Below are positions 34,954-35,989 of a DNA stretch of 64,000 bases, piece after piece. The notes under the pieces were generated by a model. It saw only the letters and a program-made list of their open reading frames with translations. It had not been told where the DNA came from and ran no database searches. The DNA lies in assembly GCA_003024175.1 (NCBI GenBank), contig MDYQ01000012.1, positions 1 to 64,000 of the forward strand, in the 5' to 3' direction. How positions within the stretch are numbered: position 1 is the stretch's first letter; the number at the start of each line of letters is the position of its first letter. The stretch is from Planoprotostelium fungivorum (lineage: Eukaryota; Evosea; Variosea; Cavosteliida; Cavosteliaceae). The translations under genes were made by a program, and so were the position numbers.

Positions 34954-35989
34954 TCAAGCCTTCTTCATGATGAGTGACCCCAGCCTCTCGAATGCCGAAT
35001 TGATGTTGATGGATTCCTTCGCACTGTCTTCGTCAGAAATGGATCTCCTCTTCGGTTCACCTCGTCTCGAGATAAGAGATGCCCAAGTTGTCCGCCAACT
35101 GTTTCACATGAGTTATGGTTTCAAATGTGTACGAAAGCTTACCTCTTTAGCCGTGCGTGTATCGATGATCCTCTTGCTCTCCAGATCGCACTTGTTTCCG
35201 ACTAAACACTTGACGATGGAGGGGGCGGCGTGTCTCTCTATGTCGTCCAGCCACTTCTTGATGTTGTCAAAGCTCGGTTTGTTCGTGACATCGAACACGA
35301 CTGTTTGTGATGAGAGAAGATGGAGAAGATGATGTTCTCACTGATGAGACCATGTGCCCCTCTGTAGTAACTGGTCGTGATGGTTTGGAAACGTTCTTGT
35401 CCTGCAGTATCCCAGATCTGCATCTTCACCTTTTTTCCGTCTATCTCTATTGTTTTGATCTTCTGTCGGGGGTATCAGATCAGATCCGCAGATTGAAACA
35501 TGGAGGCTCACAAAATCGACACCAATCGTACTGATGAAATTATCGGTGAAAGCATTATCCTGTTCGTGTCTTCAGTCTCTATCACAAAATGGGATGTGAA
35601 ATGTTGGGGATCAAGGCGTAACTCACAGCAAAACGGAGGAGGATGCAACTCTTTCCTGTTTTTGATTTTAGACGATTCGTGACACACATTTAAAGAAGAC
35701 CAACCATCGGAGGATGGAAAATGAGATGTGTTGAATATGTATAGGACACTCACCAACACCGGAGTCTCCAATCAGAAGAAGTTTGAACAGGAAATCACTT
35801 TTTAGAGGTTAGATGATGAGACATCCGGAAGTCTGACTCACTAATCTTTCGGCTTTGGAGCATTTGATGGTATGACCATGCCTTGTTGGCCCTCTGAGAA
35901 CATGTAAATCAGATGCAGATCGCGATGATGGACGATGTATCCAGAGGATGATGCGTCAGACGATTACCTTTACTGTCCCCACAACCCAT
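34954..35989 (-). CDS. Rab1/Rab8-like GTPase with N-terminal MGC signal and no prenylation cysteine
   Basis: Vesicle-traffic GTPase with an unusual anchor. The first ATG (35987-35989) reads MGCGDSKEGQQG, then an extension ending [21 protein letters not shown]. The GTPase core is complete: P-loop [43 protein letters not shown], a NKCD specificity motif and ETSAKE. It is closest to Rab1/8/10 in wording. The last exon ends [16 protein letters not shown] and stops at 34954-34956, directly after the G domain, with no hypervariable tail and no CC or CXC. MGC is the classic myristoylation-plus-palmitoylation signal. Plant ARA6 (RabF1) has the same architecture but belongs to the Rab5 group, so this may be an independent origin. 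About seven exons, all joins in frame. No other upstream in-frame ATG was found. Confidence 0.88.

Follow-up and report, generated by a model that had tools for sequence, protein, structure and literature searches.

A conserved Rab of the Rab1/8 branch with a predicted N-terminal acyl anchor in Planoprotostelium fungivorum

A gene on the minus strand of Planoprotostelium fungivorum contig MDYQ01000012.1 (34954-35989) encodes a Rab GTPase that begins with MGC and ends without a C-terminal cysteine. At the level of sequence this gene is confirmed as real, and we put the probability at about 0.8 that its product (the window Rab) belongs to the Rab1/8 branch, carries two N-terminal acyl groups in place of a prenyl anchor and works beside canonical Rab1. 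The window is the whole stretch of DNA analyzed (64,000 nucleotides, positions 1 to 64,000 of the contig), and all coordinates refer to it. Prenylation and GDI recycling are regarded as the normal Rab membrane cycle, from which Rab5-type ARA6 and Rab5B are known to depart; if a Rab1/8-type protein that is conserved and apparently acylated does the same, the exception also arose in another part of the family. Since dictyostelids carry an MGC-type Rab, loss of GDI control over a secretory-type Rab would be testable in a tractable amoeba.

Gene structure and protein features

The gene has nine exons and runs from an ATG at 35989 to a TGA at 34954 in a single frame of 193 amino acids. All introns are GT-AG and range from 37 to 98 nt (74, 44, 98, 67, 49, 41, 44 and 37 nt). 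The exon bounds were reproduced by a purpose-written spliced aligner given the protein, which is identical to the GenBank prediction ‘Rab GTPase’ of P. fungivorum. Exon 1 (35968-35989) is a 22-nt mini-exon that carries the start ATG and encodes MGCGDSK plus one base, just as the first-pass annotation had read it; the same type of start is found in P0003, a ‘complete’ transcript ORF from EukProt (193 aa, MGCGES...IMKKT) that is 85% identical to the window Rab and its nearest relative in sequence among the matches listed. Exon 2 (35842-35893) supplies a variable linker of 17 residues plus two bases, and exon 3 (35754-35797) opens the G domain with 15 residues that include G1. Exon 4 (35627-35655; 10 residues) and exon 5 (35512-35559; 16 residues, switch I region) are each followed by a phase 0 intron, at codons 50 and 66, respectively. 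The switch II region with an intact DTAGQE lies in exon 6 (35342-35462), the guanine-specificity motif GNKCD in exon 7 (35143-35300) and the start of ETSAK in exon 8 (35061-35098), while exon 9 (34954-35023) encodes helix α5 and the stop (...LGSLIMKKA*).

The complete Rab core claimed earlier is present: GDSGVGKS, DTAGQE, NKCD and ETSAK, which we take to be the nucleotide motifs, are all intact, and Pfam Ras matches residues 30-189 with 221.3 bits. The protein also stops, as had been noted, directly after the G domain. It ends just past helix α5 with ...IMKKA*, and has neither the geranylgeranylation cysteine of the Rab family nor the prenylated hypervariable tail of the Rab1 subfamily. Its N-terminus, MGCGDS, has the ARA6-type form MGCxxS. 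In an AlphaFold2 model built from 36 sequences (mean pLDDT 81.7), the G domain is folded, with lower confidence at residues 51-60 and 81-100, which are taken for the switches; pLDDT stays under 50 over residues 1-18, and α5 spans residues 178-192 of 193, i.e., the very end of the protein.

A family of MGC-type Rabs

Three protein searches, each keeping the best 120 of 7,987 candidates, yielded 304 distinct proteins including the window Rab; the searches were seeded with the MGC-type family, and the counts therefore describe this sample rather than all Rabs. Among the matches listed, 76 of the 304 proteins start with MGC, and none of these has a cysteine in its last five residues or anywhere in its tail. 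Another 178 have a C-terminal cysteine and neither an MG start nor an early cysteine, and the remaining 50 fit neither pattern, some being variants and some apparently truncated. MGC-type members occur in Dictyostelium cf. discoideum, Polysphondylium violaceum, Cavenderia fasciculata, Acytostelium subglobosum and Heterostelium album, in many environmental sequences among the matches listed, and presumably in Physarum (we read the sequence prefix Phypoly in this way). The Dictyostelium member may, we assume, be RabC. A protein of that name appears in a D. discoideum vacuole proteome, according to excerpts of PMC11509842.

Assignment of the 304 proteins by nearest G domain, among the matches listed, places 37, 33 and 28 in clades A, B and C of the trees described below and 203 with canonical Rabs, with three unassigned (P0018, P0026 and P0227). 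Among the listed members of clades A-C that start with Met, 83 of 95 have MG plus a cysteine at position 3-5 (76 MGC, 7 MGNC or MGGVC), and in 94 of 95 the last five residues are free of cysteine; the sole member with a C-terminal cysteine, P0004, comes from a nematode gene model labeled ‘Rab-10’ and seems to have been misassigned to these clades. Canonical relatives that start with Met show the opposite pattern among the matches listed (MGC start, 0/191; C-terminal cysteine, 177/191). The MG-plus-Cys start is absent in 12 of the 95 listed A-C members, P0004 among them. The other exceptions are P0016 (MCC) and P0146 and P0187 (both MACC), for which palmitoylation alone would remain, as well as P0137 (MGSKGDD) and P0151, which carries MGCG ten residues in; those with other starts (P0028, P0125, P0135, P0139, P0147 and P0226) are perhaps truncated or wrongly started models.

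All 76 MGC starts among the matches listed fit the PROSITE myristoylation pattern, with S/T at position 6 in 67 and K/R at position 7 in 60. The median tail past the SAK motif is 26, 23 and 22 residues in A, B and C, respectively, vs. 49 in Cys-ended canonical Rabs (among the matches listed). In 36 aligned relatives, whose rows were chosen as MGC-type, G2 and C3 are kept and the rest of the linker is variable. Judged by their sequences, MGC-type Rabs make up a subfamily that is conserved and widely distributed. The first-pass proposal that the lipid anchor had moved to the N-terminus holds at this level, and beyond the species, while its picture of a single unusual gene has to be corrected; the search for the same start elsewhere that it had suggested gave the 76 of 304 listed proteins above, dictyostelids and Physarum included.

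Relation to Rab1 and Rab8 and the number of origins

The best matches of the window Rab among solved structures (PDB) are Rab1A (260 bits), Rab8A (232.5) and Rab10 (231.5). For G-domain phylogeny, 85 MGC-type candidates were reduced to 52 by removal of near-copies, and 51 were used (P0225, a gapped model, was left out of the trees), to which 18 canonical rows and 12 reference sequences were added; a second tree of 72 rows was built after removal of nine (eight long or distant rows and P0016). The MGC-type Rabs form clade A, which contains the window Rab, the dictyostelids and the Physarum group (support 100/95 in the first tree, 99/94 in the second), clade B (100/95, 99/94) and clade C (99/97, 100/95). 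Canonical Rab1 rows are a group of their own (98/96, 98/94). Clades A and B join the Rab8-type rows (97/79, 95/85), and in the second tree A, B, C and Rab8 are grouped at 98/94. Rab5A and an ARA6 sequence are split from all other rows (100/99, first tree). Membership of the window Rab in Rab5/ARA6, which would bring the Rab5-type G domain that is typical of ARA6, is thus ruled out by PDB scores and the G-domain tree. The core had been described as Rab1/8/10-like, and the phylogeny agrees, placing the G domain near Rab1 and Rab8 within the family.

Intron positions point more narrowly to Rab1. Over the aligned part, the introns at codon 50 and codon 66 (both phase 0) match exactly those of the species’ own Rab1 gene (C464) and of C73, and a third lies one codon apart in the same phase (159 vs. 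158) in the comparison with C464. The codon 50 intron is also found in C23 and the codon 66 intron in C286 and C13; the divergent C88 has intron 171/2 in common with the window Rab, and none of the five introns of the species’ own Rab8 gene (C203) matches. PDB score and introns hence favor Rab1, whereas the trees put clade A with B and Rab8, and clade A is not nested in Rab1 in either tree, contrary to the intron pattern. Within the Rab1/8 stem, we provisionally trace the window gene to the Rab1 side.

Because the G domain groups with Rab1/8 and not with Rab5/ARA6, the origin of the anchor swap looks separate from that of ARA6. In this respect the ‘second origin’ proposed earlier is supported; within Rab1/8 the swap may have arisen once or more than once. 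Trees in which A, B and C are made to form one clade are worse by 2.55 and 6.65 log units (p-AU = 0.435, 0.243), values that establish neither one origin nor several, and constraints on A+B (p = 0.521, 0.2) and A+C (p = 0.405) were likewise examined. At sites at least 85% conserved in Rab1 rows (P0004 and P0225 left out), all three clades depart from Rab1 at two residues. Residue 53 is Phe in A, B and C, a state also seen in both Rab8 rows; residue 121 is mostly Lys, vs. Gln in 92% of Rab1 and Asn in the two Rab8 rows. Rab10 likewise has Lys at this position, so Lys121 is weak evidence for a single origin. A possible but doubtful history is that the three clades descend from a single old and hitherto unrecognized paralogue that arose in the Rab1/8 stem, swapped its anchor once at an early stage and was retained by several eukaryotic lineages to work with Rab1 independently of GDI.

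The species’ own Rab1 resembles the window Rab in its introns and in Rab1A being the best PDB match, and differs in its short N-terminus (MNPEYDYLFK), its GGCPC end and its separate group in the tree. Removal of a 44-nt intron gives its gene a ...NNNGGCPC end; unspliced, it stops right after SR. Other cysteine-ended Rab relatives in the genome are C13 (KKCCA) and the Rab8 gene (KACCQ; best PDB match, Rab8A). The presence of these relatives, Rab1 included, indicates that the window Rab is an addition to Rab1, not a substitute for it. A divergent Rab at C180 (L018) has a frame that stops right after helix α5 (...IKTR*). Some GTPase matches occur in pairs of equal score (contigs C73/C272 and C13/C94, and two places in C116) and are perhaps uncollapsed haplotypes or duplications.

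Predicted membrane cycle, alternatives and precedents

The same genome encodes NMT, DHHC enzymes and GDI-family genes (C225 and C11, of which we infer C11 to be REP-like). In the cycle that we envisage, NMT would place myristate on Gly2 of the window Rab, a DHHC enzyme would then S-palmitoylate Cys3, and the acylated N-terminus would hold the protein on a membrane. Lacking a hypervariable tail and prenylated cysteines, the window Rab should need no REP/RabGGTase for membrane delivery and should escape extraction by GDI; such an escape from REP and GDI control is plausible. Turnover of palmitoylation may set membrane residence, with GTP/GDP cycling still controlling effectors. By analogy with ARA6, the window Rab would probably sit beside prenylated Rab1 on a distinct membrane subset, and some exchange factors or effectors may be common to both. 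The acyl groups, target membrane, partners and freedom from GDI in this scheme are our inferences.

Three other readings bear on this proposal. It is very improbable that the true gene uses a different exon at its start or end and encodes an ordinary prenylated Rab1. The GGCPC end of the species’ own Rab1 arises only from a further exon past the 44-nt intron, which illustrates that such exons can be missed; in the window gene, however, 140 alternative single-intron joins from the last exon, with GT or GC as donor and an acceptor 30-600 nt away, yielded no CC or CXC end, the configuration that the first-pass annotation regarded as fatal to its claim. Thirteen of the 140 do place a cysteine within the last four residues (GT occurs once in the last exon). 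A convergent open frame terminates at 34903, leaving some 50 bases beyond the Rab stop, and the other 75 MGC-start proteins among the matches listed, P0003 included, are also without a C-terminal cysteine. As for an upstream exon that would displace the MGC start, no in-frame ATG lies between 35989 and the first upstream stop (TGA at 36145, 52 codons up), and P0003 lends transcript support to both ends of the model. It is similarly far-fetched that the window Rab is a degenerate, membrane-free copy in which MGC is incidental: the normal anchor is indeed missing, but the GTPase motifs are intact, the MG-plus-Cys start recurs in 83 of the 95 listed A-C members, and G2/C3 are conserved amid a variable linker in the 36 relatives chosen as MGC-type.

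A more serious alternative, though still an unlikely one, is that the Rab is acylated and yet handled by GDI or by a carrier such as UNC119/PDE6D, so that its cycle would not be GDI-free. GMP_PDE_delta-family (PDE6D/UNC119) matches at two genome loci (C73 and C67) mean that another carrier could act, and with the GDI family present and the core Rab motifs intact, contact with GDI without a lipid is conceivable. Against this, the window Rab lacks a prenyl acceptor and has hardly any tail, and ARA6 sits on endosomes via its N-terminal anchor, as excerpts of PMC5947987 describe. An acylated Rab of the Rab1/8 branch that would not depend on GDI remains our preferred reading.

ARA6/RABF1 of plants and green algae is the closest parallel. 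Excerpts of PMC5947987 and PMC3871812 describe the same MGCxxS start and lack of C-terminal prenyl cysteines, and an N-myristoylated and palmitoylated protein that works beside canonical RAB5; according to the former, ARA6 limits canonical RAB5 via a common effector and GEF. We suggest by analogy that the window Rab could have a comparable relation to Rab1, although ARA6, unlike the window Rab, has a Rab5-type G domain. Plasmodium falciparum Rab5B also starts with MGCSS and has no C-terminal motif, and its N-terminal Gly is required for myristoylation in vitro (PMC3912013, excerpts); it, too, is Rab5-related. The two known precedents are hence both Rab5-type, and the window Rab would be an ARA6-like solution in a different Rab branch.

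Protist Rheb offers N-terminal acylation and an anchor that has changed repeatedly, in a Rheb rather than a Rab; the 2018 paper that describes this (PMC5869587) also mentions, in its excerpted text, one Rab with dual acylation, a paralogue related to Rab5 that occurs in Chloroplastida and some alveolates. Acanthamoeba Rab7 homologues (PMC10913462) and RabTitan (PMC3425129) resemble the window Rab in having no prenylation cysteines, but are Rab7-type or very distant from Rabs, and the excerpts of these two papers mention no N-terminal acylation for them. The word ‘myristoyl’ was not found in the available parts of PMC3425129 or PMC3192815. An acylated Rab1/8 case was absent from the titles and abstract beginnings searched, a scope outside which the main Rab survey (Elias 2012) falls.

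The window holds several further features. The three convergent plus-strand open frames searched next to the Rab gene (33808-34903) gave no Pfam match. On its other side, a divergent plus-strand neighbor (36427-36913) has a UEV domain (PF05743, 59.9 bits in the first piece; 23 bits, below the cut-off, in the second) and presumably resembles TSG101/Vps23. A second small GTPase, not a Rab, lies on the minus strand at about 19344-20110 and ends in ...GGCSVL* (CaaX-type); we take its sequence to be Rho/Rac-like. Finally, positions 22001-24000 show strong GC and AT skew (0.315 each) and are purine-rich over the first 900 bases.
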